The notes under the pieces were generated by a model. The model worked only from the letters and a program-made list of their open reading frames with translations, did not search any database and had not been told where the DNA came from. This document shows, piece after piece, positions 2,101-44,655 of a DNA stretch of 64,000 nucleotides; the stretch's first letter is position 1; the number at the start of each line of letters is the position of its first letter. The stretch is from the NCBI GenBank assembly GCA_910576345.1, contig CAJTIT010000013.1:1-64000 (forward strand). The letters run 5' to 3'. The stretch is from Erysipelotrichales bacterium. GTDB lineage: Bacteria > Bacillota_I > Bacilli_A > Erysipelotrichales > Erysipelotrichaceae. Both the position numbers and the translations under genes were made by a program.

Positions 2101-3787
2101 GATGAACAAAATGATATCCAATCGCTACATGATTGTGACATCTCTTGGCGAAGGCGGTATGGCAGATGTATATCTTGCGGTTGATACTATATTAAATCGT
2201 GAAGTCGCAATCAAAGTTTTACGTGGAGAATTATCCAGTGACCCTGTCACACTGCTTCGGTTTCAGCGGGAAGCGAATGCTGCCAGCAAGCTGAATCACC
2301 CCAATGTTGTTGATGTATATGATGTTGGCGAACATGAAAATCGTCACTATATCGTAATGGAATATGTACGCGGAAGAACGCTGAAACAATTGATTTCACA
2401 ACGTGGTGCGCTCGACAAAAAAGAAGCAGTCGATATTATGATTCAACTTACATCGGCAGTAGAGCATGCGCATGAAAATAATATTATTCATCGTGATATC
2501 AAACCGCAAAATGTGTTGGTAAAAGATGACGGAACGATTAAAATAACAGATTTCGGTATTGCTTTGGCACATGATGCGGTGCAATTAACACAAAGTGATG
2601 CCGTATTGGGCAGTGCACATTATCTAGCACCTGAAACAACAAGAGGAGAACCGCCCACCAATCAGATTGATATTTATGCATTGGGAATTGTATTTTATGA
2701 ATTGTTGAGTGGATCCGTTCCGTTTAAAGGAGATAACCCTGTACAAATTGCCATGAAGCATTTACGTGAAGAAGTTCCTGGCATACGTGCGTTCAATCCA
2801 ACGCTGCCGCAATCCATTGAAAATATTATAACAAAAGCAACTATTAAAAATCGCAGACTGCGTTATCAAACAGCCAAAGATATGTTGGTAGACTTGCAAA
2901 ATTGTCTTTTGGACGAGTATGCCAATGAAGAAAAACTGGTTTTTGAAGAACAGGAAAACATACCAACCGTTGTCATGGATGAAGTAAAACAAAAGGAATC
3001 GGAACAAAACAAGGAAAGTGATACAATCAAATCAATGCCTCAAAAAAACAACTCAAAAATGTTTTTTGGTGTAACGATTGGCGTAGTTATTGGCGCATTG
3101 CTATTGGTTTTACTGTACTTCTTAAATGTACAAAGCAATCCGCAGATCATCGTGCCGGATATTTTGAATCATACAAAAGAAGACGCATTGGATTTATTGA
3201 AAAATGCCGGGTTTGAAGAAAGTGATATCACATTTATTGAAAAAACAAGTGAAGATACCAAAAGTGGACTGGTATTTGAATGTTCGCCTGCTGTTGGTCA
3301 AAGTGTTACGAAAAACAATGGAATTCAAGTGAGTGTTTCCAAGGGACAGTTTTTTATCATTGAAAATTATGAAGGCCGCATCTATACAGATGTGGAAAAA
3401 GAAATCAAGGATGCATTGCCTCATGCTGTACTGACTTCAGAATTTGTTATTTCTAATGAAAAAGAACCGGGAACCATCCTTTCCCAAAGTGGTGCAGAAA
3501 TCAATGAAAAGTGTGAACCGGATACAGAAGTAACTCTCCACTTTCAAGTTGCCAAAGCACCGTCGTTAACAATCGAACACGTGATCGGTATGCCAATCGA
3601 TAGTGCGAAAGCGTTGCTGGAAACTTCAAAGGTCGCTGTTGTCTGTGTACAGAAACAGACGATTGGAATGAGCGAAGAAGAAATCAATGCACTGGAAAAA
3701 GGCGTCGTGGTAGAAGTGGATCCGCCAGAAGGCACATTCTATACACAAAATGGTTCTGAAAATTACATTACTTTGTACTATTATTAA
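2093..3787 (+). CDS. prkC: PASTA-domain serine/threonine protein kinase PrkC
   Basis: Membrane kinase that senses muropeptides or lipid II outside the cell and phosphorylates proteins inside. Residues 1-270 form a Hanks-type kinase: glycine loop LGEGGMADVYL, catalytic lysine in VAIKVLRGEL (about K40), HRDIKPQN (Asp about 135) and DFGIA. A charged linker is followed by one membrane span at about 323-345. Three PASTA repeats then fill the extracellular part to residue 564. The start at 2093 has GGGGAGG 6-7 bases upstream and overlaps the prpC stop. PASTA number and length match Bacillus PrkC. Substrates cannot be inferred from the sequence. Confidence 0.95.
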   Translation: MNKMNKMISNRYMIVTSLGEGGMADVYLAVDTILNREVAIKVLRGELSSDPVTLLRFQREANAASKLNHPNVVDVYDVGEHENRHYIVMEYVRGRTLKQLISQRGALDKKEAVDIMIQLTSAVEHAHENNIIHRDIKPQNVLVKDDGTIKITDFGIALAHDAVQLTQSDAVLGSAHYLAPETTRGEPPTNQIDIYALGIVFYELLSGSVPFKGDNPVQIAMKHLREEVPGIRAFNPTLPQSIENIITKATIKNRRLRYQTAKDMLVDLQNCLLDEYANEEKLVFEEQENIPTVVMDEVKQKESEQNKESDTIKSMPQKNNSKMFFGVTIGVVIGALLLVLLYFLNVQSNPQIIVPDILNHTKEDALDLLKNAGFEESDITFIEKTSEDTKSGLVFECSPAVGQSVTKNNGIQVSVSKGQFFIIENYEGRIYTDVEKEIKDALPHAVLTSEFVISNEKEPGTILSQSGAEINEKCEPDTEVTLHFQVAKAPSLTIEHVIGMPIDSAKALLETSKVAVVCVQKQTIGMSEEEINALEKGVVVEVDPPEGTFYTQNGSENYITLYYY

Positions 3788-18168: not shown

Positions 18169-18203
18169 GAAATAAGAACGCAATGTTTTTATTTCTTTTT
18201 TTT
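18169..18203 (+). terminator. Terminator after the MBL hydrolase
   Basis: GAAATAAGAAC (18169-18179) pairs with GTTTTTATTTC (18185-18195), with one G-T pair, followed by eight T. It separates the hydrolase from comG. The rest of the 123-base gap is poly-T and poly-A; a TTGAAA/TATATA pair at 18220-18247 is too close to the comGA ribosome site to be trusted. Confidence 0.75.
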
Positions 18204-18263
18204 AAATTTTTTTGTAATTTTGAAAAAAAAAGCAAACAGTATATATAGAAGGAGGTGAAACAA

Positions 18264-19244
18264 ATGAAGACACACTTGATACAACTGATACAATTCGCAC
18301 TCCAAAACCAAGCAACGGATTTGCATTTCCTGTATCAAAACGATCAGCTTTCCGTAAAACTGAGAGGAATGCATGGAATGGAAGAAATCCACAGCGCAAT
18401 GATTGACCATAAGCTGTTCCATTATCTCAAATACATCGCCAATTTAGATTTGGGAAAAAATGATGAACCACAATCCGGATCATTTACACTGAAGATCCAT
18501 CACAAAGATTATTACTTTCGCTTTTCTGTACTTGCATCCCTGCATCTTCAAACCGGTGTGTTACGTATTTTAAACAACCATACGCATCTAACATTGAAAG
18601 ATATGGTGCTATCACAAAAGCAATATGCGGCGTTTTGTCGATTCACAAAGTTAAAAAGTGGATTGATATTGCTATCCGGTCCTACCGGAAGTGGGAAGAC
18701 AACGACACTGCATGCGATTTTAGATGCCATAGCACAAGATGGAAAGCGGAAAATCATGACGCTGGAAGATCCGATTGAAATTGTGAATGAGCGATTGATA
18801 CAGCTACATGTCAGTGAACATGGCACATTGACATATGAAGAAGGCATCCGTCAACTGATGCGCCACGATCCGGATGTCATCATGATTGGAGAAATACGCG
18901 ATCCGTATACTGCAAAAATGGCTTATCGTTGTGCTTTGACCGGACATCTTGTATTGTCTTCGATTCATGCCAAAAGCACGCTGGAAACCATCAAGCGCAT
19001 GGAAGAATTGGGCGTCACAAGACAAGACTTAAAGGATACGCTGTTTGCGGCTTGTACACAGCGCTTATTCACGCGAAAAGACAAAGAAAGGGAGCGAATC
19101 TGTATTTATGAAATCTTGGAAGGAACACAGCTACAAAATGCCTTGGCAGGAAAAAACATCCATATGGCAGCGTCTTTACAGAAATGTGTGCGGCAAGCCG
19201 TGGAAGATGGCATCATTGAAGAAGAACAAGCAATGTACGCATAA
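18264..19244 (+). CDS. comGA: Competence pseudopilus assembly ATPase ComGA
   Basis: Secretion-type ATPase of 326 residues that drives assembly of the DNA-uptake pseudopilus at the inner face of the membrane. Walker A is GPTGSGKTT (about 139-147). TLEDPIE, GEIRDPYTAKMA and LSSIHAKST are the Asp box, Walker B region and His box of GspE/PilB ATPases. AAGGAGGTG lies before the ATG at 18264; a GTG at 18255 is part of that ribosome site. It is the first gene of a seven-gene comG operon, all in Bacillus order. Confidence 0.94.
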   Translation: MKTHLIQLIQFALQNQATDLHFLYQNDQLSVKLRGMHGMEEIHSAMIDHKLFHYLKYIANLDLGKNDEPQSGSFTLKIHHKDYYFRFSVLASLHLQTGVLRILNNHTHLTLKDMVLSQKQYAAFCRFTKLKSGLILLSGPTGSGKTTTLHAILDAIAQDGKRKIMTLEDPIEIVNERLIQLHVSEHGTLTYEEGIRQLMRHDPDVIMIGEIRDPYTAKMAYRCALTGHLVLSSIHAKSTLETIKRMEELGVTRQDLKDTLFAACTQRLFTRKDKERERICIYEILEGTQLQNALAGKNIHMAASLQKCVRQAVEDGIIEEEQAMYA

Positions 19245-31539: not shown

Positions 31540-31568
31540 TTGACAAATTGAACCGTATTCTGTATGAT
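31540..31568 (+). promoter_or_regulatory. Consensus sigma-A promoter of purA
   Basis: TTGACA (31540-31545) and TATGAT (31563-31568), spacer 17 bases. It starts a leader of about 90 bases before purA. Confidence 0.8.
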
Positions 31569-31578
31569 AGTACAGGAC

Positions 31579-31636
31579 AAAGACGTGCCTAGAAAGGACA
31601 ATGGATTCATGTAATTTCAAGCAACGTCTTTTTATA
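31579..31636 (+). promoter_or_regulatory. Terminator-like hairpin in the purA leader
   Basis: AAAGACGT (31579-31586) pairs with ACGTCTTT (31624-31631), closing a 37-base internal segment, followed by TTTTTATATTTTT. It lies between the promoter and the purA ribosome site, so it could act as an attenuator. The loop holds a start codon (31601) with AAAGGA just before it, opening a frame that runs past the hairpin into purA. I match it to no known riboswitch. Confidence 0.5.
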
Positions 31637-31664
31637 TTTTTGAGAACACGGAGGTATTTCTTAT

Positions 31665-32948
31665 ATGTCTGGATATGTTGTAGTCGGTACACAATGGGGA
31701 GACGAAGGAAAAGGAAAAATCGTCGATGTATTAAGCGAAAAGGCGGATATGATCGTTCGTTTCCAAGGTGGAAACAATGCGGGTCATACAGTTGTCGTCA
31801 ATGGAGAAAAACATATTTTGCATCTATTGCCAAGCGGATGCCTTCATGAACATGCAAAATGCATCATTGGTCCCGGTGTGGTTGTGGATCCGTTTGTATT
31901 GCTGGATGAATTGGAAATATTAAGATCAAAAGGCATGAATACCGAGCATATCTATATAAGTGAGCGTGCACATTTGATTATGCCGTATCATATATTATTG
32001 GATCAGCTACAGGAAGAAAAAGCCGGCAATAGAAAAATCGGTACAACAAAACGAGGAATCGGACCTTGTTATGCTGACAAATATACAAGAACCGGTTTGC
32101 GCGTTCATGATTTAATTCATTTTGACACTTTCAAGGAAAAGCTGCGTTATACATTGGAAATCAAAAATGAACAAATCGTAAAACTGTATCATGGAACACC
32201 GTTTGACTATGATGAAATGGTGCAGAAATTTTCGGACATTAAAGATGCATTGTTGCCAAGAATTGTAGAATCGCTTTATGAAGTCAATCATGCATTGGAT
32301 GAAGATCAAATGGTTTTGTTTGAAGGCGCTCAGGCTGCGATGTTGGATATCAATTATGGCACCTATCCGTATGTGACTTCCTCATCTCCAACAACTGCCG
32401 GTGTATTAAGCGGCGTCGGTATTGCTCCACAAAAACTGGATCACATGATTGGTGTGGTTAAAGCATACAGCACAAGAGTGGGGGAAGGTCCTTTTGTAAC
32501 GGAATTAATGGATGAAACAGGCGCAAGCATTCGTGAAAAAGGAAAAGAGTTCGGCGCAACAACGGGCAGACCGCGCAGATGTGGATGGCTGGATCTCAAT
32601 GTGGTGAAACATGCGTGTACCATCAATGGTCTTACCGATCTTGTCATTACAAAAATTGATGTGTTGAGCGGTCTAAAAGAATTGCAGGTATGTGTTGCAT
32701 ATGAAGTCAATGGCAAACGTTTGGATTATATACCGTCGGCTGTGGAAGATGTAGAATGTGCTAAACCGATCTATCAATCATTTACCGGATGGGATGAAGA
32801 CATAACCAAATGTAAGACGTATGATGAATTGCCTGAAAACTGTAAAGCGTATTTATCATTCATTGAAGATTTCACCAAAACAAGAATTTCTCTTATTTCC
32901 GTAGGTCCCGATCGTGTAAACAATATCATTACACATGCTTTGATTTAA
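31665..32948 (+). CDS. purA: Adenylosuccinate synthetase
   Basis: Joins IMP and aspartate with GTP, the first committed step to AMP. GTQWGDEGKGKIVD at the N-terminus is the P-loop and catalytic Asp; NAGHTVV, IGTTKRGIGPCYADK, GPFVTEL and TGRPRRCGWLD follow. The length is 427 residues. CGGAGG lies before the ATG at 31665. It works with purB at 47799-49232, which acts next on its product. Confidence 0.96.
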   Translation: MSGYVVVGTQWGDEGKGKIVDVLSEKADMIVRFQGGNNAGHTVVVNGEKHILHLLPSGCLHEHAKCIIGPGVVVDPFVLLDELEILRSKGMNTEHIYISERAHLIMPYHILLDQLQEEKAGNRKIGTTKRGIGPCYADKYTRTGLRVHDLIHFDTFKEKLRYTLEIKNEQIVKLYHGTPFDYDEMVQKFSDIKDALLPRIVESLYEVNHALDEDQMVLFEGAQAAMLDINYGTYPYVTSSSPTTAGVLSGVGIAPQKLDHMIGVVKAYSTRVGEGPFVTELMDETGASIREKGKEFGATTGRPRRCGWLDLNVVKHACTINGLTDLVITKIDVLSGLKELQVCVAYEVNGKRLDYIPSAVEDVECAKPIYQSFTGWDEDITKCKTYDELPENCKAYLSFIEDFTKTRISLISVGPDRVNNIITHALI

Positions 32949-35486: not shown

Positions 35487-37565
35487 TTATGAGCGATAAA
35501 GCAAATCAAAGTAATCCGGATATGGCCAGTAGCTTTTCGCTGTTATTTCTTCTAATTGATCTGTATAATGCCGCACAATGTCCATTTGTGGAAGAATCGA
35601 TTCCTTACATGACATCGCAGCTGCTTTCATATCATGTTCATCCATTTGTTTTAATTTTTCTTTTAATGTTTGCGTGGATTCATATAAAGCATTGGTTAAT
35701 TCATCCAATTTCTGAATCAATGTTGTATGCTTTTCCTGTTTGAAAAGTAATTGTTTTTTTTCAGCATTCATTAATAACATGTTTTCATAATCAATGACAG
35801 CCGGTAATATATCCTGTTCTACCATGCGTACCATTGTCAAGGCTTCAATGTTGCATTTTTTATAGTAGGTTTCATAGAGAATCGCATCTCTTGCTTTCAG
35901 CTCGTTTTCATTGAAGATCCCGTGTTTTGTAAATAAGGCAATATTATTGGAAGTAATATAGTAAGGAATGGCGTCAGCGGTGGTTGGTAAATTCAAAAGA
36001 CCACGCTGTTTTGCTTCTTTCAGCCATTCTTCTGTATATCCATTGCCATTGAATATAATACGCTTATGTTTTTGAATGGTTTCTTTGATCAATGTATGCA
36101 GTGCTTTTTCAAAGTCATTTGCATTTTCTAAAACATCCGCAAATTTACTTAATTCTTCCGCAACGATCGTATTGAGGATATAATTGGGACAAGAAATGGA
36201 TAGGGAGGATCCCAGCATGCGGAATTCAAATTTGTTTCCGGTAAACGCAAATGGAGAGGTACGGTTACGATCGGTCGTGTCTTTTGGAAATTTTGGCAGT
36301 GCATCTACACCAATTTTCATGGATCGTTCATAAGTTTGATCGTAAACATGATCGTTCTCGATTGCATCCAATACGGCTTCCAATTCATCTCCCAAAAATA
36401 TTGAAATGATCGCAGGTGGCGCTTCATTGGCGCCAAGACGATGATCATTGCCAGCTGTAGCAACGCATACACGAAGTAATCCCTGATATTCATCTACGGC
36501 TTTCACAACAGCTAATAAAAATAGTAAAAAGCGCGCATTTTTCTGTGGTGTTTGACCAGGTTCTAACAAATTGATGCCGTTATTCGTTGTCAAGGACCAG
36601 TTGTTATGTTTACCACTGCCATTGATATGCGCAAACGGTTTCTCATGTAACAGACAGGCAAATCCATGACGTTCTGCGACTTTTTGTAAAATTTCCATCG
36701 TTAACTGATTTTGATCGGATGCAATATTCGCAGTTGTAAAAACAGGGGCTAACTCAAATTGTGCCGGGGCAACTTCTTTATGTTCCGTTTTTGCAAAAAT
36801 ACCAAGTTTCCATAATTCTTGATCGACGTCTTGCATAAAGGCAGAAACACGCTGTGAAATCATCCCAAAATAGTGATCTTCCATTTCTTGTCCACGTGTT
36901 ACTTTGGCTCCAAACAAGGTACGACCAGTCAATATGAGATCCGGTCGTTGTTCATACAGCGCTTTGTCGATTAAGAAGTATTCCTGTTCCGGCCCTACAG
37001 TGGTCGAAACATGTGTGATTCCTTCATTCGGAAATAAAGAAATAATACGCATTGCTTGTCGGTTGATGACTTCCATGGATCTTAACAACGGCGTTTTTTT
37101 ATCCAATGCAGAGCCATCAAAGGAACAAAACACAGTAGGGATGCATAAGGTATGATCTTTGATGAAGGCAAAAGAGGTAGGATCCCAATTTGTATACCCT
37201 CGTGCTTCAAAAGTAGCGCGCAGCCCGCCGTTTGGAAAACTGGAAGCATCCGGTTCTCCTTTGATCAATTCTTTTCCTGAAAATTCAAGAATGACATGAG
37301 ATGCGTCTTGCGGGCAAATAAAACTTTCATGTTTCTCTGCTGTAATACCGGTCATCGGTTGAAACCAATGGGTATAATGGGTTGCCTGTTTTTCAATGGC
37401 CCAGTCCTTCATTGCATTTGCGACAACATTGGCCACGCTCAAATCCAAAGATGTACCTTGTTCCATTGTTGCTTTCATTTTGTGGTAAATATCTTTTGGA
37501 AGTCGCTGGCGCATGATCGTATCGTTAAATACATATTCACCAAAATATTCAGGTATCGTATTCAT
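35487..37565 (-). CDS. glnN: Type III glutamine synthetase
   Basis: Makes glutamine from glutamate, ammonia and ATP. At 692 residues it is the large GSIII form, found in Bacteroidetes, cyanobacteria and some Firmicutes. GSIII features include NGGLRATFEARGY, GPEQEYFLID with catalytic Glu residues, HINGSGKHNNWSL, LGANEAPPAI, and DRNRTSPFAFTGNKFEFRMLG. I start at the ATG at 37565 (MNTIPEYFGEYVFND) after AAGGATGG; the frame is open to 37670 but that is promoter and leader. Transcription begins about 70 bases upstream and passes through a terminator with a hexaloop hairpin. A type I enzyme lies at 42836. Confidence 0.94.
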   Translation of the reverse strand: MNTIPEYFGEYVFNDTIMRQRLPKDIYHKMKATMEQGTSLDLSVANVVANAMKDWAIEKQATHYTHWFQPMTGITAEKHESFICPQDASHVILEFSGKELIKGEPDASSFPNGGLRATFEARGYTNWDPTSFAFIKDHTLCIPTVFCSFDGSALDKKTPLLRSMEVINRQAMRIISLFPNEGITHVSTTVGPEQEYFLIDKALYEQRPDLILTGRTLFGAKVTRGQEMEDHYFGMISQRVSAFMQDVDQELWKLGIFAKTEHKEVAPAQFELAPVFTTANIASDQNQLTMEILQKVAERHGFACLLHEKPFAHINGSGKHNNWSLTTNNGINLLEPGQTPQKNARFLLFLLAVVKAVDEYQGLLRVCVATAGNDHRLGANEAPPAIISIFLGDELEAVLDAIENDHVYDQTYERSMKIGVDALPKFPKDTTDRNRTSPFAFTGNKFEFRMLGSSLSISCPNYILNTIVAEELSKFADVLENANDFEKALHTLIKETIQKHKRIIFNGNGYTEEWLKEAKQRGLLNLPTTADAIPYYITSNNIALFTKHGIFNENELKARDAILYETYYKKCNIEALTMVRMVEQDILPAVIDYENMLLMNAEKKQLLFKQEKHTTLIQKLDELTNALYESTQTLKEKLKQMDEHDMKAAAMSCKESILPQMDIVRHYTDQLEEITAKSYWPYPDYFDLLYRS

Positions 37566-37590
37566 AAATATCCATCCTTTCTTCAAATAC

Positions 37591-37633
37591 AAAAAAAGAC
37601 ACTGTACCTTTCGATTACAGCGCCTTTGCTTGT
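37591..37633 (-). promoter_or_regulatory. glnN leader: hexaloop hairpin overlapping an intrinsic terminator
   Basis: On the minus strand AGC[AAAGGC]GCT (37630-37619) forms a small hairpin, extended by AC/GT past one bulged A. The same bases supply the 5' arm of a terminator, GGCGCTGTA (37624-37616) with TACAGTGTC (37606-37598) and two G-T pairs, then seven T (37597-37591). The loop has A at 1 and G at 4, the rule for ANTAR-protein targets. This is the weakest of the three similar leaders. Confidence 0.6.
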
Positions 37634-37641
37634 TTGCGGTA

Positions 37642-37670
37642 ATTATAAACATGTGAAAAGCAGTTGTCAA
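37642..37670 (-). promoter_or_regulatory. Consensus sigma-A promoter of glnN
   Basis: On the minus strand TTGACA (37670-37665) and TATAAT (37647-37642) are separated by 17 bases. Both hexamers are perfect matches. The start site should be near 37635. Confidence 0.85.
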
Positions 37671-37697
37671 TCCTTTTTTTTATTTTTAAAATTTTAC

Positions 37698-37726
37698 TTG
37701 ACAAAAAGTAGCGAAGTGATTAAGAT
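37698..37726 (+). promoter_or_regulatory. Sigma-A promoter of the glutamate synthase operon
   Basis: TTGACA (37698-37703) and TAAGAT (37721-37726), spacer 17 bases. It is divergent from the glnN promoter, 28 bases away. Confidence 0.8.
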
Positions 37727-37735
37727 AAAACACGT

Positions 37736-37790
37736 TAAGCAAAGAGGCTTATGCACATTGCATTTTTGTGCAGCGCTCTTTGTTTTTTTT
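37736..37790 (+). promoter_or_regulatory. Glutamate synthase operon leader: hexaloop hairpin overlapping a terminator
   Basis: TAAGC[AAAGAG]GCTTA (37736-37751) is a 5-bp hairpin with a six-base loop, A at 1 and G at 4, starting about 3 bases after the expected start site. The competing terminator pairs CAAAGAG (37740-37746) plus GC with GC and CTCTTTG (37776-37782), encloses an inner TGCACA/TGTGCA stem, and ends in eight T (37783-37790). The two folds share 37740-37748, so they exclude each other. This is the expected form of an ANTAR antitermination site. Confidence 0.7.
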
Positions 37791-37811
37791 ATTTTGAGAG
37801 GAGCGATCACT

Positions 37812-38876
37812 ATGAAAGAAGGAGAATTTCGCATACCATCCGGATGTGCGATTGCGGCTTTGATCCATAAAGATAAACACCGTGAGAACGGAGAGCGCAT
37901 TACGCAGGCGATGCGGATGATGCATGAGCGCTCCAATGGTCTTGGCGGCGGTTTTGCGGCGTATGGCATCTATCCGGAACATAAAAACGAGTATGCTTTG
38001 CATCTTTTTTATGATACTTTACAATGCAAGGATGCATGTGAAGCGTATTTGTCTCATCATTGGAACATCCTACATGAAGAAGAAATACCCACCAAACCAC
38101 ATTCCCAAATCAAGGACGCCCCGCTAATTTGGCGATATTTTATCGAGAGTGTAGAACATGATGAAAATAAAATGACAGAAACAATGTTTTATGTCAATAC
38201 ATCCATAACAGGCGCTTATATATTTTCCTGTGGAAAGAACATGGGAGTTTTCAAAGGTGTTGGCTATCCGGAAGATTTGGCAGAGTTTTATTGTTTGAAT
38301 CAGTATCAAGCATATACATGGATTGCGCATGGCCGTTATCCGACGAATACGCCTGGCTGGTGGGCAGGCGCACATCCTTTTGGTATGCTGGATTTTGCTT
38401 TGGTACATAATGGAGAGATATCCAGCTACGATGCCAACCGGCGTTATATAGAAATGTTTGATTATCCATGTTCCTTATTGACAGATACAGAAGTTATCAC
38501 ATATGAATTGGATTTTCTGATGCGGAAACACCAACTGTCTTTTGTAGAATGCGCGGATATTTTGGCAGCGCCTTTTTGGGATGAAATCGATCAAATGAGA
38601 CCGGATAAAAAACGCTATTATACAATGCTTCGAAGAAACTTGGGATCGATGCTGATCAATGGTCCGTTCAGTATTATCTTAGGTTTTCAAGATGGTGTCG
38701 GCGCCATGAATGATCGTTTAAAACTTCGATCTTTGATGATTGGCGAACAAGCATCCTGTGTCTATATGGCCAGTGAAGAAAGTGCCATTCGCAAAATGAG
38801 TCCGCAACTGAATCGATTGTTTTCGCTGAAAGCACAAGAAGCATATGTTGTTACTTATGAGGAGGACGCAAAATGA
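37812..38876 (+). CDS. Glutamate synthase glutamine-amidotransferase subunit (GltB1-like)
   Basis: Class II (Ntn-type) glutaminase of 354 residues that would release ammonia from glutamine. The likely nucleophile is Cys12 in PSGCAIAALI, so the first 11 residues must be removed, as in PurF. Family segments are MHERSNGLGGGFAAYGIYPE, AHGRYPTNTPGWWAGAHPFG and LVHNGEIS. It corresponds to the N-terminal domain of bacterial GltB made as a separate protein, the archaeal-type arrangement. GAGGAG precedes the ATG at 37812. The next gene starts inside its stop. Confidence 0.85.
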   Translation: MKEGEFRIPSGCAIAALIHKDKHRENGERITQAMRMMHERSNGLGGGFAAYGIYPEHKNEYALHLFYDTLQCKDACEAYLSHHWNILHEEEIPTKPHSQIKDAPLIWRYFIESVEHDENKMTETMFYVNTSITGAYIFSCGKNMGVFKGVGYPEDLAEFYCLNQYQAYTWIAHGRYPTNTPGWWAGAHPFGMLDFALVHNGEISSYDANRRYIEMFDYPCSLLTDTEVITYELDFLMRKHQLSFVECADILAAPFWDEIDQMRPDKKRYYTMLRRNLGSMLINGPFSIILGFQDGVGAMNDRLKLRSLMIGEQASCVYMASEESAIRKMSPQLNRLFSLKAQEAYVVTYEEDAK

Positions 38877-40369
38877 AAAAGCAGCCAAAATATGAAATTA
38901 TCAAGGATCAAGATCGATGTGATACATGTCGTGCATGTGAATTTCAATGTGCCAATGGTGTATATCATTATGATGCAGAAAAAAAGAAGATGATAATCGA
39001 TTCTCTATCTTGTGTAAATTGCCAGCGATGCGTGGAATATTGTCATCAGAATGCATTGAAAATTATTGCCAATCGAAATGAATATCATCATGGATATTGG
39101 CAAATGGAAGATATGCAGGAAATTTATCAACAAGCAGAACATGGTGGAATGTTACTGTCTTCCATGGGAAATGACAAAGCATATCCTAAATACTTCGATC
39201 ATCTGTTGATCAATGCATCACAAGTGACTAATCCCAGTATCGATCCATTACGTGAACCGATGGAAGTACGAACGTTTTTAGGAAAACGAACCCACCATAT
39301 CACTAGAGATACAAATGGAAACATTCAAATCAAAGTACATCCGCATCTGCATTTAAAAACCCCGATTCTTTTTGCGGGCATGTCTTTAGGGGCTATTTCT
39401 TATCCGGCGCATCAAGCGCTTTTGGAGGCGGCGAAAGCACTTGGCACATTTTATAACTGTGGGGAAGGCGGTCTTCCTAAAACATTCTATTCGGATAAGG
39501 ATTCCATCATTGTACAGGTTGCCAGTGGAAGGTTCGGAGTCGATCCAACGTATCTAAAACATTCTGCTGCGATCGAAATTAAAATTGGGCAAGGCGCAAA
39601 ACCAGGAATTGGCGGTCATTTACCAAGTAGTAAAAATTCTGCTTTGATCGCTGATACAAGAATGATAGAAGAGGGAAGTGAGGCAATTTCTCCAGCACCG
39701 CATCATGATATTTATTCCATTGAAGATCTTCGACAGCTGGTAAACTCTTTGAAAGAAGCCACCCAATATGAAAAACCTATCATCGTGAAAGTAGCGGCTG
39801 TACATAATATTGCGGCCATATGCAGCGGTATCGCCAGAAGTGGCGCAGATATCATTTATATAGACGGTATGCGCGGAGGTAGCGGTGCGGTGCCTACCAG
39901 AATTCGCGATCATGTTGGTATACCATTGGAATTGGCATTAGCCAGTGTGGATCAGACTCTACGAGAGGAAGGCATACGTGAAGACGTCTCCATAATTGCG
40001 GCTGGCGGTATTCGCAATAGTGCGGATGTGCTGAAAGCCATTGCTCTTGGTGCGGATGCGGTTGCGATTGGAACGGCGGCACTCATAGCGATGGGATGTC
40101 ATATGTGCTGTGATTGCACAAAAGGAAATTGTAATTGGGGCATTGCGACACAAAAAGATGCGCTTGTAAAGCGTCTCCATGTCGAACAGGCAAAACGACA
40201 GCTCATTCATTTGATTCAAGCATGGACGTTGGAATTAAAAGAAATGATGGGCGGTATGGGTATTTGTTCTATAGAAGCGTTAAGAGGCAATCGCATGATG
40301 TTGAGAGGGATACATTTACAAGAAGAAGAACTGCGTATTTTGCAGGTCAAACATGCAGGAAGCAGGTGA
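38873..40369 (+). CDS. FMN-binding glutamate synthase subunit with N-terminal ferredoxin domain (GltB2-like)
   Basis: Synthase subunit of 498 residues that would use the released ammonia to aminate 2-oxoglutarate. Residues about 10-66 hold two 4Fe-4S motifs, CDTCRACEFQC and CVNCQRCVEYC. From about 95 the FMN barrel follows: GIGGHLPSSKNS, IIVKVAAVHN, IYIDGMRGGSGAVPT, IIAAGGIRNSADV and AIGTAALIAMG. A cluster of cysteines near 408-419 (CHMCCDCTKGNC) probably binds another Fe-S centre. No NADPH subunit (gltD) is present, so electrons likely come from ferredoxin. GAGGAGG precedes the ATG at 38873, which overlaps the previous stop. Confidence 0.88.
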   Translation: MKKQPKYEIIKDQDRCDTCRACEFQCANGVYHYDAEKKKMIIDSLSCVNCQRCVEYCHQNALKIIANRNEYHHGYWQMEDMQEIYQQAEHGGMLLSSMGNDKAYPKYFDHLLINASQVTNPSIDPLREPMEVRTFLGKRTHHITRDTNGNIQIKVHPHLHLKTPILFAGMSLGAISYPAHQALLEAAKALGTFYNCGEGGLPKTFYSDKDSIIVQVASGRFGVDPTYLKHSAAIEIKIGQGAKPGIGGHLPSSKNSALIADTRMIEEGSEAISPAPHHDIYSIEDLRQLVNSLKEATQYEKPIIVKVAAVHNIAAICSGIARSGADIIYIDGMRGGSGAVPTRIRDHVGIPLELALASVDQTLREEGIREDVSIIAAGGIRNSADVLKAIALGADAVAIGTAALIAMGCHMCCDCTKGNCNWGIATQKDALVKRLHVEQAKRQLIHLIQAWTLELKEMMGGMGICSIEALRGNRMMLRGIHLQEEELRILQVKHAGSR

Positions 40370-40373
40370 TCAC

Positions 40374-41084
40374 ATGATTGACGCAAAAAATCTTACTGCG
40401 AGCGAACTGAATACAAAAATTCGTGAAAGCGATGCAGATGTCATAGAAATTCAAAATATTTTGGGACAGCGATACATTGCGAATGCCTCCAATGGAAAAA
40501 AAATTAAGTTGTTTGGCACTTGTGGGAACAATTTGGGCAGTTTTCTGGATGGCAGTGAAATAGAAGTGTTTGGAAATGTGCAGGACGCATGTGCCAATAC
40601 GATGAATGATGGCAAGATAATTCTACATGGCATGTGTGGAGATGCGCTTGGATACGGCATGCGCGGTGGTAAAATCTTTGTTGAAAAGGACTGTGGAAGC
40701 CGATGTGGGATTCATATGAAAGCGACGAAAACCAAACAGCCGCTGATGATCATAGGTGGTGTCGTACAGGATTTTTTCGGTGAATATTTATCAGGAGGAA
40801 CCTTGATTGTTTTGAATTTGCAAAATGAAGCAAGCTGCTGTGGCAGATATTGCGGCTGCGGCGCTCATGGCGGATCGATTATTTTACGGCTGTCCGACTT
40901 ATCACAAGCTTGCCATCTAACTTCACAATTAAAAAAAGTAGATGATAAAAAGAAAGCGTATATTGATCAAGCTTTGAATGAATATGCGAATGATCTTCAT
41001 ATCACACTTCCCAAAACAATGGATTTTTATGAAGTGATTATGCAAAATAAAAATCCATATGAAAGACTCTATGTAGAGAATTAA
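40374..41084 (+). CDS. Glutamate synthase GXGXG-domain subunit (GltB3-like)
   Basis: A 236-residue protein forming the GXGXG beta-helix of glutamate synthase, with repeated Gly-Asp-rich turns (GNNLGSFLDGSEIEVFG, GDALGYGMRGGKIFVE, GEYLSGGTLIVLN). In the fused enzyme this domain shapes the ammonia tunnel and contacts the synthase domain. A Cys-rich stretch (ASCCGRYCGCGAHGG) is notable. The ATG at 40374 has AGGTGATC upstream; an in-phase ATG at 40353 lies inside the previous gene. With the two genes before it, it completes the synthase. Confidence 0.85.
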   Translation: MIDAKNLTASELNTKIRESDADVIEIQNILGQRYIANASNGKKIKLFGTCGNNLGSFLDGSEIEVFGNVQDACANTMNDGKIILHGMCGDALGYGMRGGKIFVEKDCGSRCGIHMKATKTKQPLMIIGGVVQDFFGEYLSGGTLIVLNLQNEASCCGRYCGCGAHGGSIILRLSDLSQACHLTSQLKKVDDKKKAYIDQALNEYANDLHITLPKTMDFYEVIMQNKNPYERLYVEN

Positions 41085-41096
41085 GGAGGAAAGATT

Positions 41097-42677
41097 ATGT
41101 GTGGATTTATGAGTGTTTGCGGAACTGATTTACCGTTATCTGTTTTTAAGTCTTCGTTTCACTCCATCGCACATCGCGGTCCGGATGCGAGCAAATGCGT
41201 AGTGCTAAACGATGGTATCATGGGTTTTCATCGTCTGGCCATTATGGGATTAAGTGAAAAAGGAATGCAGCCGATGGAATGGAATGGAAATGTCTGTATA
41301 TGCAATGGCGAAATCTATAATTATCGCTTCTTGGCAAAAGAAAAATTAAATCTTTCTTTGCATACCGGAAGTGATTGTGAAGTCCTGTTGCCTTTATATT
41401 GCAAATATAAAACGCAGATGTTTGATATGCTGGATGGAGAATTTGCGATGGTCTGTTATATCAAAGAAAGTGACGAATGGATCGCGGCCAGAGATTCCAT
41501 GGGAATACGTCCGATGTTTTATGGTTTTCAAAAAGGCAACGGACGCATTGCCTTTGCCTCAGAAGCAAAAGCACTGTTGCCCTTCTGTGATGTCATCCAT
41601 CCTTTTCCGATAGGCACATATTATAAAGATGGAGAATTTCACTGTTATCATGATTGTTCCAATATAACAAGCATACAAGCTAACCATAATTTGGAGACAT
41701 TGTGCAAAGGCATTCGTTCCCGTTTAGAAAGTGCAGTATTGAAACGATTACACAGTGATGCGCCGATTGGTTTTCTGCTCAGCGGCGGATTGGATTCCTC
41801 TTTGGTTTGTTCTATTGCCGCAAAACACATCACTCAGCCAATCAAAACGTTTGCGATTGGTATGGATAAGGATGCGATTGATTTATCCTATGCACGTGAA
41901 GTAGCGGATTTTATTGGCAGTGAACATCATGAATTTCTCATCACCAAGGATGATGTTTTAAAAGTACTGCCGGAAGTGATCTATCATCTGGAATCTTATG
42001 ATATTACAACGATTCGTGCTTCTGTCGGCATGTATTTGTTATGTAAAAAAATATCAGAAGAGAAGGATGTCAAAGTATTGCTAAGCGGTGAGATTAGTGA
42101 TGAATTGTTCGGTTATAAATATACGGATTATGCGCCATCCGCTAAAGAATTTCAGAAAGAATCGGAAAAGCGGATTCGTGAATTATATCAATATGATGTG
42201 CTACGTGCGGATCGATGCATTGCAGCACATGCCATGGAAGCACGCGTACCTTTCAGTGATAAAGAATTGATCGCATATATCATGCGGATTGATCCTGAAT
42301 TAAAGCGTAATCATTATGGGATTGGAAAATATTTATTGCGTCATGCATTTACAGACATGGACTTGCCCAAACATATACGAATGCGTGAAAAAGCTGCTTT
42401 TTCAGACGCTGTTGGTCATTCTTTGGTAGATGACATTCAGGCATATGCCAATCAGTATTATGATGATGCAACATATGAAGCAAAACGAAAATGCTATACA
42501 CATGCGCAACCATTCACAAAAGAATCCTTATATTATCGGGAATTGTTCGAATCTTTTTTTCCTAATCGCTCTCATTGGATCAAGGGTTTCTGGATGCCCA
42601 ATGCCACATGGCCAAATTGCGATGTGAATGATCCCAGTGCCAGAGTATTGAAAAATTATGGAAACAGCGGACAATAG
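41097..42677 (+). CDS. Asparagine synthetase (glutamine-hydrolysing)-like, AsnB family
   Basis: A 526-residue amidotransferase. Cys2 of MCGFMSVCG is the glutaminase nucleophile, with AHRGPDAS, FHRLAIMG and CNGEIYNYR following. The synthetase domain has the PP-loop LSGGLDSSLV (Ser about 229) and a later SGEISDELFGYKY. AsnB makes asparagine from aspartate and glutamine. It sits 12 bases after the GXGXG gene with AGGAGG upstream. Why it lies in a glutamate synthase operon is unclear; asparagine as nitrogen store is one reading, another substrate is possible. Confidence 0.82.
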   Translation: MCGFMSVCGTDLPLSVFKSSFHSIAHRGPDASKCVVLNDGIMGFHRLAIMGLSEKGMQPMEWNGNVCICNGEIYNYRFLAKEKLNLSLHTGSDCEVLLPLYCKYKTQMFDMLDGEFAMVCYIKESDEWIAARDSMGIRPMFYGFQKGNGRIAFASEAKALLPFCDVIHPFPIGTYYKDGEFHCYHDCSNITSIQANHNLETLCKGIRSRLESAVLKRLHSDAPIGFLLSGGLDSSLVCSIAAKHITQPIKTFAIGMDKDAIDLSYAREVADFIGSEHHEFLITKDDVLKVLPEVIYHLESYDITTIRASVGMYLLCKKISEEKDVKVLLSGEISDELFGYKYTDYAPSAKEFQKESEKRIRELYQYDVLRADRCIAAHAMEARVPFSDKELIAYIMRIDPELKRNHYGIGKYLLRHAFTDMDLPKHIRMREKAAFSDAVGHSLVDDIQAYANQYYDDATYEAKRKCYTHAQPFTKESLYYRELFESFFPNRSHWIKGFWMPNATWPNCDVNDPSARVLKNYGNSGQ

Positions 42678-42725: not shown

Positions 42726-42754
42726 TTGACAAATATCATACTTTTCGCTATCAT
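42726..42754 (+). promoter_or_regulatory. Sigma-A promoter of glnA
   Basis: TTGACA (42726-42731) and TATCAT (42749-42754), spacer 17 bases. Transcription should begin near 42761. Confidence 0.8.
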
Positions 42755-42760
42755 ATACAT

Positions 42761-42815
42761 ATGAACAAAGGTGTTCATCAAGAGGGAATGGTTTCTTTTG
42801 ATGACCACTTTTTTT
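42761..42815 (+). promoter_or_regulatory. glnA leader: hexaloop hairpin overlapping a terminator
   Basis: ATGAAC[AAAGGT]GTTCAT (42761-42778) is a perfect 6-bp hairpin with a six-base loop, A at 1 and G at 4. It begins at the expected start site. Bases 42767-42781 also form the 5' arm of a terminator with 42798-42812: TCATCAA/TTGATGA, one mismatch, GTG/CAC, then G-T and A-T pairs into seven T (42809-42815). The hairpin and terminator cannot form together. It is the clearest of the three leaders. Confidence 0.78.
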
Positions 42816-42835
42816 CTTAATTTTGGAGGATAATT

Positions 42836-44053
42836 ATGGAAAGTACAATTCAAGAAGTATGTTCATTCATCAAAGAAAATGATGTGAAATTCATTCGTTT
42901 GGCATTTTGTGATTTACTAGGCAATCAAAAAAATATTTCCGTGATGCCTTCACAGTTGGATCGTGTTTTCAAACATGGAATTTCATTTGATGCTAGCGCA
43001 ATACCAGGCTTTCAAAATGTGGATCAGTCTGATTTGTTTCTTTATCCCGATGTTGCCACCTTGGATATTCTTCCATGGCGACCTTCACAAGGAAGGGTGA
43101 TTCGTTTTTTTTGTGAAATTCGCTATCCGGACGGCCGTCTTTATGAAAAAGATACTCGGTCGTTGTTGAAACAAAAATGCGGTGAAATACAGACCATGGG
43201 ATGGCATGTGATGAGCGGTTTGGAATGTGAGTTTTATGCGATGGAATCTATCGATCAGTCTTGTCAGCCGATCGATCACGGCTCTTATTTGGATATTTTT
43301 CCAAAAGATAAAGGAGAGGATTTGCGCCGTGACATTTGTTTGACATTGGAATCGATGGGAATTACACCGGAAAGCTCACATCATGAACAAGGTCCCGGAC
43401 AAAATGAAATTGATTTTCATTTTGATGATGCGCTGATATCCTGCGATCATTATATGACCTTTCGCTGGATTGTGGATAGTGTGGCTCATACACATGGCGT
43501 CATTGCAAATTTCATGCCAAAACCGATGAAAGATGCAAGCGGCAATGGTCTGCATATCAATTTATCTTTGTCTAAAAATAATCTGAATGCATTTTCTTTA
43601 GAAGATCCTACTTACATATATCCATTTTTGGCTGGAATATTGGCACATATCAGAGAGATTACTGCATTTTTAAATCCTTGTGAAAACTCTTATGAGCGAC
43701 TAGGTGAATTTGAGGCGCCTAAGTATGTTAGCTGGAGCCATTCTAATCGCTCTGCGCTGGTACGCATTCCTTCTGCCAGTAAATCGTATGTACGCTTAGA
43801 AGTACGAAGCGCTGACCCTACTTGCAATCCATATCTGGCCAGCTATTTGTTGATTTGCGCAGGAATGGATGGCATCAAACATCATCGATCCTTGCAAAAA
43901 GAAAGCAAAACCGATGTAATGTTTGAAAGCAATCTGGAAATGCTGCCGCATTCTTTAAATGAAGCTAAGGAAATCGCACGCAACAGCGAATTTGTAAAAC
44001 AAATACTCCATCCTGCTATCCGTTCTTTTTATCTGGATTCAAACAATCAGTAA
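42836..44053 (+). CDS. glnA: Type I glutamine synthetase, C-terminally short
   Basis: ATP-dependent glutamine synthetase of 405 residues. Active-site signatures are SGLECEFYAM, SSHHEQGPGQNEIDF, KPMKDASGNGLHIN, NSYERLGEFEAPKYVSWS, NRSALVRIP and RLEVRSADPTCNPYLA. Most type I enzymes have about 440-470 residues. This one ends soon after FVKQILHPAIRSFYLD and lacks the last ~30 residues seen in Bacillus GlnA. The flap segment reads RLGEFEAP rather than the usual RLVPGYEAP. GGAGG precedes the ATG at 42836. It leads a transcript with the ANTAR regulator and pyrG. Confidence 0.92.
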   Translation: MESTIQEVCSFIKENDVKFIRLAFCDLLGNQKNISVMPSQLDRVFKHGISFDASAIPGFQNVDQSDLFLYPDVATLDILPWRPSQGRVIRFFCEIRYPDGRLYEKDTRSLLKQKCGEIQTMGWHVMSGLECEFYAMESIDQSCQPIDHGSYLDIFPKDKGEDLRRDICLTLESMGITPESSHHEQGPGQNEIDFHFDDALISCDHYMTFRWIVDSVAHTHGVIANFMPKPMKDASGNGLHINLSLSKNNLNAFSLEDPTYIYPFLAGILAHIREITAFLNPCENSYERLGEFEAPKYVSWSHSNRSALVRIPSASKSYVRLEVRSADPTCNPYLASYLLICAGMDGIKHHRSLQKESKTDVMFESNLEMLPHSLNEAKEIARNSEFVKQILHPAIRSFYLDSNNQ

Positions 44054-44079: not shown

Positions 44080-44655
44080 ATGCCATCCATTCTTATTTGT
44101 GCTCATCAACAAAAAAACATTGATATTTTAAGTGAATATTTTATCGCACATGGATATCATGATTTTGTTGTAGCCTTTACAAGTGATCAGGCAATCGAAC
44201 TTATAAAAAAACAGGTATTCACGATGGTTTTTGTGGACCTTCCTTTTACACAAGATACACATGAATTTACAAGTCTGTGCGCAATGGCGCAGTTGAGTCA
44301 TGCGACATTTATTGTCATGGTAAAAAGAAATCATTATGATTTGGTTCGTGCCAAAGTGGAAGAATATGGTATTTTTACAATCATGAAACCCATTGATAAG
44401 GATGTATTGATACAGTTGATGGCCTTTGCACAAGCTGCCTTGCATCGTTATCATCACGCAATGAAAAAGCAAGCGCAAATGGTAAAGAAGATCAAAGAGA
44501 TCAAATTGATTGATCGTGCCAAATGTCTGCTGATTCAAAATGAGTACATCACAGAAGAAGAAGCACATAAACGCTTGGAAAAAGAAGCAATGAATCAACG
44601 AAAAACACGTTTGGAAATCGCAAATGCGATTATTAGAGAATACGAGGAGGGATGA
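44080..44655 (+). CDS. ANTAR-domain RNA-binding antiterminator with degenerate receiver
   Basis: A 191-residue regulator. Residues 1-120 have a response-regulator fold: Asp53 (FVDLPF) and Lys103 (IMKPID) are kept, but the acidic pair that binds Mg2+ is replaced by ILICAHQ (Ala8-His9). After a helical linker, residues about 138-188 form an ANTAR domain (IDRAKCLLIQNEYITEEEAHKRLEKEAM, in segments), which binds RNA hairpins with A1/G4 hexaloops. AAAGGAG precedes the ATG at 44080. It lies between glnA and pyrG, and three nitrogen leaders nearby carry matching hairpins. A similar glnA-nitR order is, as I recall, described in Clostridium saccharobutylicum. Confidence 0.85.
   Translation: MPSILICAHQQKNIDILSEYFIAHGYHDFVVAFTSDQAIELIKKQVFTMVFVDLPFTQDTHEFTSLCAMAQLSHATFIVMVKRNHYDLVRAKVEEYGIFTIMKPIDKDVLIQLMAFAQAALHRYHHAMKKQAQMVKKIKEIKLIDRAKCLLIQNEYITEEEAHKRLEKEAMNQRKTRLEIANAIIREYEEG

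Follow-up and report, generated by a model that had tools for sequence, protein, structure and literature searches.

The leader of a glutamate synthase (gltS) operon in the window, by which we mean the whole stretch of 64,000 nucleotides that was analysed, raises the question of whether a single hexaloop hairpin can serve an ANTAR-type antiterminator. Approximately 400 Firmicute and proteobacterial ANTAR targets have been described as dual (PMC8164766), deletion of the first hairpin (P1) abolishes the induction of eutP by EutV (Ramesh 2012, PMC3369931), and both hexaloops were argued to be necessary during transcription (Walshe 2022, PMC8934654). The latter study allowed single-hexaloop sites as possible where the time limit imposed by the polymerase is absent, whereas the one-hexaloop leaders considered here are transcriptional. 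From its sequence, the gltS leader very probably attenuates transcription under the control of the NitR-like ANTAR protein encoded nearby, with one hexaloop per leader.

Architecture of the gltS leader

The features of the leader and of the genes that follow it are these:

37698–37726, + strand: sigma-70 promoter of the gltS operon, TTGACA-17-TAAGAT (10/12 matches)
37736–37751, + strand: gltS hairpin TAAGC[AAAGAG]GCTTA, a single ANTAR-type hexaloop starting at about +4 of the RNA (+1 to +5)
37740–37790, + strand: gltS intrinsic terminator, whose 5' arm CAAAGAGGC overlaps the hexaloop hairpin; T8 at 37783–37790
37812–38876, + strand: glutamate synthase class-II amidotransferase subunit (Pfam GATase_2)
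38873–40369, + strand: glutamate synthase FMN domain with ferredoxin domain (Pfam Glu_synthase)
40377–41084 (start approximate), + strand: glutamate synthase GXGXG subunit (Pfam GXGXG)
41097–42677, + strand: asparagine synthase-like gene in the gltS operon (Pfam Asn_synthase)

The original prediction had placed a hairpin sharing nine bases with a two-part terminator and eight T residues in front of a glutamate synthase operon. This was borne out at 37736–37790, and the downstream Pfam domains correspond to split class-II amidotransferase, FMN domain and GXGXG subunits. The leader thus carries a short-stemmed hairpin whose six-nucleotide loop has A1 and G4, and this hairpin overlaps the 5' arm of the intrinsic terminator by exactly 9 bases (37740–37748). 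The terminator stem (CAAAGAGGC ... GCGCTCTTTG, 37740–37782) contains one bulged C and an inner TGCAC/GTGCA stem; it was absent from a simple terminator scan because its loop exceeds 8 nt and its stem is bulged.

Folding of the leader (37733–37792) yielded −20.4 kcal/mol (z −3.9), a value matched by none of 200 shuffles, compared to −4.5 kcal/mol for the hexaloop hairpin folded alone. This difference indicates that the terminator would be the default fold and that the hairpin would need help to persist. The expectation that the operon is mostly off without an antiterminator follows from these predicted energies. A short RNA of about 55 nt, as had also been proposed, fits a predicted start near 37733 and a predicted end in the T run near 37789.

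The −10 element ends 9 nt before the gltS hairpin, so the latter should begin at around +4 of the RNA. A weaker second promoter-like site (TTGTCA-17-TAAAAT, 37664–37692, + strand) lies 34 bases upstream of the gltS promoter. An Rfam scan of the window returned no family at gathering score, and hence no described riboswitch or T-box.

Sibling leaders and a NitR-like protein

The switch had been referred to as the same as one found elsewhere, and it does recur at glnA, glnN and purA within the window:

42726–42816, + strand: glnA leader with promoter TTGACA-17-TATCAT and terminator to about 42816, in the same layout as gltS
42761–42778, + strand: glnA hairpin ATGAAC[AAAGGT]GTTCAT
42836–44053, + strand: glnA, glutamine synthetase I (Pfam Gln-synt_C, Gln-synt_N)
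44080–44655, + strand: NitR-like antiterminator with a degenerate receiver and an ANTAR domain (Pfam PF03861, 52.8 bits, above cut-off)
37573–37670, − strand: glnN leader with promoter TTGACA-17-TATAAT, hairpin AGC[AAAGGC]GCT (3 bp) and a terminator with T7, the terminator being supported by folding
35487–37565, − strand: glnN, glutamine synthetase III (Pfam GSIII_N)
31540–31640, + strand: purA leader with promoter TTGACA-17-TATGAT, hairpin GGAC[AAAGAC]GTgCC with one bulge, and terminator ACGTCTTTTT
31665–32948, + strand: purA, adenylosuccinate synthase (NCBIfam TIGR00184)

The gltS genes are followed on their 3' side by the asparagine synthase-like gene, glnA (GSI), the receiver-like/ANTAR gene and CTP synthase, in this order, while glnN is oriented divergently from the gltS operon. 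The glnA terminator folded at −22.4 kcal/mol (z −4.7). A covariance model (R1) that combines promoter and hairpin was run on the whole 2.83 Mb genome; its top four matches were the window's own leaders of glnA, gltS, glnN and purA, in that order, with E-values of 2.5e-6, 4e-4, 0.013 and 0.10, respectively; two of these four leaders belonged to the training set, from which glnN and purA had been left out. The match in the glnN leader spans 37670–37616. Since the glnN hairpin has 3 pairs only and the purA stem is bulged, these two cases are weaker; a homologous purA leader is present in locus L063. A hexaloop in front of a 1-phosphofructokinase-like gene (30473, AAAA[AGTGTC]TTTT) was judged to be a chance occurrence with a weak A/T stem, and several coding-strand hexaloops in the window were discarded as they had no T run nearby.

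Only one ANTAR gene was found in the genome, at 44080–44655, approximately 6 kb from the gltS leader. This nitR gene starts 26 nt after glnA and thus lies directly downstream of it, an arrangement in which glnA immediately precedes nitR in 74 of 80 loci that had been fetched by NitR alone. The RNA-contact residues of EutV, as taken from the structure in PMC8934654 (K147, K149, E160, Y164, M172 and R175), correspond to R/K, K, E, H, M and R in NitR, so that the ANTAR domain keeps its RNA-contact residues, as expected of a NitR-type regulator. The receiver scored 22.9 bits against Response_reg, below the cut-off of 30.2. It has no acidic pair, of 84 proteins, 45 have N and 31 have D in the phospho-aspartate column, and 78 retain the lysine; the combined acidic pair, phospho-aspartate and lysine of a phospho-activated response regulator of the EutV type was therefore not found.

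These properties place the protein close to several known regulators. AmiR and NasT/NasS are pseudo-receiver ANTAR regulators of nitrogen genes that work without phosphorylation; AmiR and NasT have a dedicated sensor partner (AmiC and NasS, respectively) and dual-hexaloop leaders. Like AmiR and NasT, NitR is a pseudo-receiver ANTAR protein associated with nitrogen genes; unlike them, its gene has no adjacent AmiC/NasS-type partner gene, its neighbour being glnA. Glutamine synthetase, which is the partner of TnrA in Bacillus, is a reasonable candidate partner of NitR given the position of glnA directly upstream in most loci, and it might act as the sensor, because a pseudo-receiver of this kind cannot work as an ordinary phospho-switch; this assignment is speculative.

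The nearest counterpart is the NitR of the Clostridium saccharobutylicum GS/GOGAT cluster treated by Stutz 2007 (Microbiology 153:3081), which is reported to antiterminate GS/GOGAT genes under nitrogen limitation (PMC6316151). Both proteins combine a receiver-like and an ANTAR domain and are encoded next to glnA, and both have glutamine synthetase and glutamate synthase targets, with antitermination presumed in our case. The present bacterium differs in belonging to another order and in adding GSIII and purA leaders. With EutV/EutW of the Enterococcus faecalis eut system (PMC3369931, PMC8934654), the system shares the A1/G4 hexaloop over a terminator arm, an ANTAR protein and the RNA-contact residues. 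However, the eut leaders depend on a pair of hexaloops and on phosphorylation of the receiver, whereas one hexaloop is present here and, unlike that of EutV, the NitR receiver is without the acidic pair and often without the phospho-aspartate.

Recurrence in related genomes

The 80 named loci fetched by the NitR alignment scan came from Erysipelotrichales, Clostridia, one Acholeplasmatales record and Spirochaetes (mainly Treponema), and the one-hexaloop layout was seen dozens of times in leaders from Erysipelotrichales, Clostridia and Spirochaetes, with a covarying stem and a conserved C[AANGNN]G. Counting hairpins of at least 3 pairs, a hexaloop with terminator was detected upstream of 25/28 amidotransferase and 34/39 glnN orthologues, and at 18/90 glnA genes, where the lower rate possibly reflects an operon-internal position of glnA in many of these genomes. 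Further genes preceded by such leaders were, according to NCBIfam, purA, purC, amt, carA, gdhA, pyrG, guaA, asnA and the glutamate synthase large subunit. A class-wide covariance-model search was subject to strict filters and too insensitive for regulon counts.

An A1/G4 hexaloop overlapping a terminator occurred in 52 of 65 orthologous-gene leaders compared to 8 of 650 shuffled ones. With loop identity left free, A1 and G4 were found in 53 of 68 terminator-overlapping hexaloops; the AAAG identity of the loop is partly favoured also by its pairing with CUUU of the terminator. Stem pairing was assessed in 65 leaders for which promoter and C[AANGNN]G were the sole selection criteria, irrespective of any stem: positions 2 and 3 were paired in 65/65 and position 4 in 61/65, all above the maxima of 58, 56 and 39 reached for positions 2, 3 and 4 in 500 shuffles. 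Pairs of the types AT, GC and CG occur in relatives, and the covariation score was 0.740, versus 0.265 for shuffled and at most 0.220 for slid alignments, in a training alignment whose members had been selected for pairing. Of 66 homologous leaders, 58 have a TTGACA-17-TATAAT-like promoter at the matching distance. Shuffled sequences and genomes lacking ANTAR were used for comparison, because a control set of 610 upstream regions of other ORFs proved to contain further members of the regulon.

Within the family, 28 of 35 ANTAR-bearing genomes have a glnN hexaloop, compared to 2 of 23 that lack an ANTAR gene (Fisher p 4e-7, calculated on a table one genome weaker and ignoring shared ancestry). 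The two ANTAR-less genomes that carry it are 66% and 78% complete and have ANTAR-bearing sister species. Among the 7 ANTAR-bearing genomes without a clear glnN hexaloop, four belong to one genus and one has only 184 nt upstream.

Several individual leaders depart from or repeat the general layout. In one ANTAR-bearing genus (L208, L209), the glnN leader retains its promoter and terminator, but only about two pairs of the C[AAAGAC]G hairpin are left. In Treponema (L120, L123, L133), a common hairpin TACGGC[AAAGAG]GTCGTA, with the same loop as the gltS leader of the window, stands before gltB and pyrG. Tandem hexaloop/terminator modules, resembling stacked attenuators, lie upstream of glnN in a Treponema (L125, around 18200–18340, + strand) and in an uncultured Ruminococcus (L126, around 3323–3523, − strand).

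One hexaloop versus two

The feature on which the original prediction was silent, and which is unusual for this family, is the single hexaloop of the gltS leader. The pair of tandem hexaloops P1 and P2 that defines the dual-hexaloop leader (Ramesh 2012) was not found at gltS. Across the relatives, 58 of 66 leaders have a gap of 3–15 nt between the −10 element and the hairpin, too short for the RNA to accommodate P1.

It is improbable, although the least so among the alternatives, that these are ordinary dual-hexaloop leaders whose P1 escaped detection because transcription starts further upstream or because P1 is degenerate. P1 and P2 are present in all experimentally studied ANTAR antiterminators, dual leaders are known in related loci, and the second promoter-like site upstream of gltS would be compatible with a missed P1. 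However, the 60 nt preceding the gltS hairpin contain no A1/G4 hexaloop of at least 3 pairs, and there is none between the glnA promoter and its hairpin; moreover, the promoter spacing is the same in those 58 leaders. The same pipeline did recover dual leaders, at glnA or the amidotransferase gene (L157, L161, L156 and L138), where an A1/G4 P1 lies close behind the −10 element and P2 follows 25–36 nt later, overlapping the terminator. A real P1 is thus detected in dual leaders, while in one-hexaloop leaders it is the hairpin nearest to the promoter that overlaps the terminator.

We give still less weight to the idea that the hairpin is real and is bound by another factor, or acts as a protein-free kinetic attenuator. 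The ANTAR-bearing genomes without the motif at glnN would suit it; on the other side stand the A1/G4 hexaloop with its closing C-G pair, the adjacency of the only ANTAR gene, the disappearance of the motif from genomes that lack ANTAR and the empty Rfam scan. Very improbable is a 5'-terminal mRNA stabiliser next to an unrelated, constitutively attenuating terminator: a stem at the extreme 5' end can protect RNA, yet a stabiliser requires neither loop A1/G4 nor the exact overlap with the terminator arm, and both are conserved.

Under the preferred reading, attenuation controlled by NitR, polymerase would start near 37733 and transcribe the hexaloop hairpin first. Without active NitR, the loop and 3' strand of the hairpin would re-pair downstream to form the terminator, and an RNA of approximately 57 nt would be released. 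When nitrogen is short, active NitR would grip the emerging hexaloop through A1 and G4 before the 3' arm of the terminator exists, and the NitR-bound hairpin would lock away the 5' arm, so that the glutamate synthase operon is read through. The glnA, glnN and purA leaders may be served by the same NitR. The promoter-proximal hairpin would then be recruitment and antiterminator hairpin in one; a loop at the 5' end would allow NitR the most time to bind ahead of terminator formation, and could in this way replace a separate recruitment hairpin.

As judged from sequence features, the one-hexaloop leader would represent a variant of the ANTAR antiterminator that departs from the two-hexaloop pattern of the described family. 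We found no description of one-hexaloop antiterminators in the open literature, although the Stutz 2007 article may already draw a single hairpin. The predicted ANTAR regulons of Desulfotomaculum (PMC3369931) also include ANTAR RNAs in front of glutamate synthase and further nitrogen genes; those regulons, however, were obtained with a dual-hairpin model, by which leaders with a single hexaloop would be missed or misread.

Walshe 2022 (PMC8934654) left open why two hairpins should be needed when a single one is gripped by an ANTAR dimer, and called for further bioinformatic and experimental work on the role of single-hexaloop motifs. A natural and conserved set of one-hexaloop leaders makes the need for two hairpins directly testable, with the four dual leaders L157, L161, L156 and L138 as useful natural controls for the single-hexaloop class. 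Our results probably define a widespread ANTAR class with a single hexaloop at the 5' end, against the rule of P1 plus P2, and a large nitrogen regulon with purine and pyrimidine genes among its members, for which glutamine synthetase would, speculatively, be the sensor of NitR. They suggest that dual-hairpin search models have missed a large nitrogen regulon reaching into nucleotide synthesis in gut Firmicutes and Spirochaetes.
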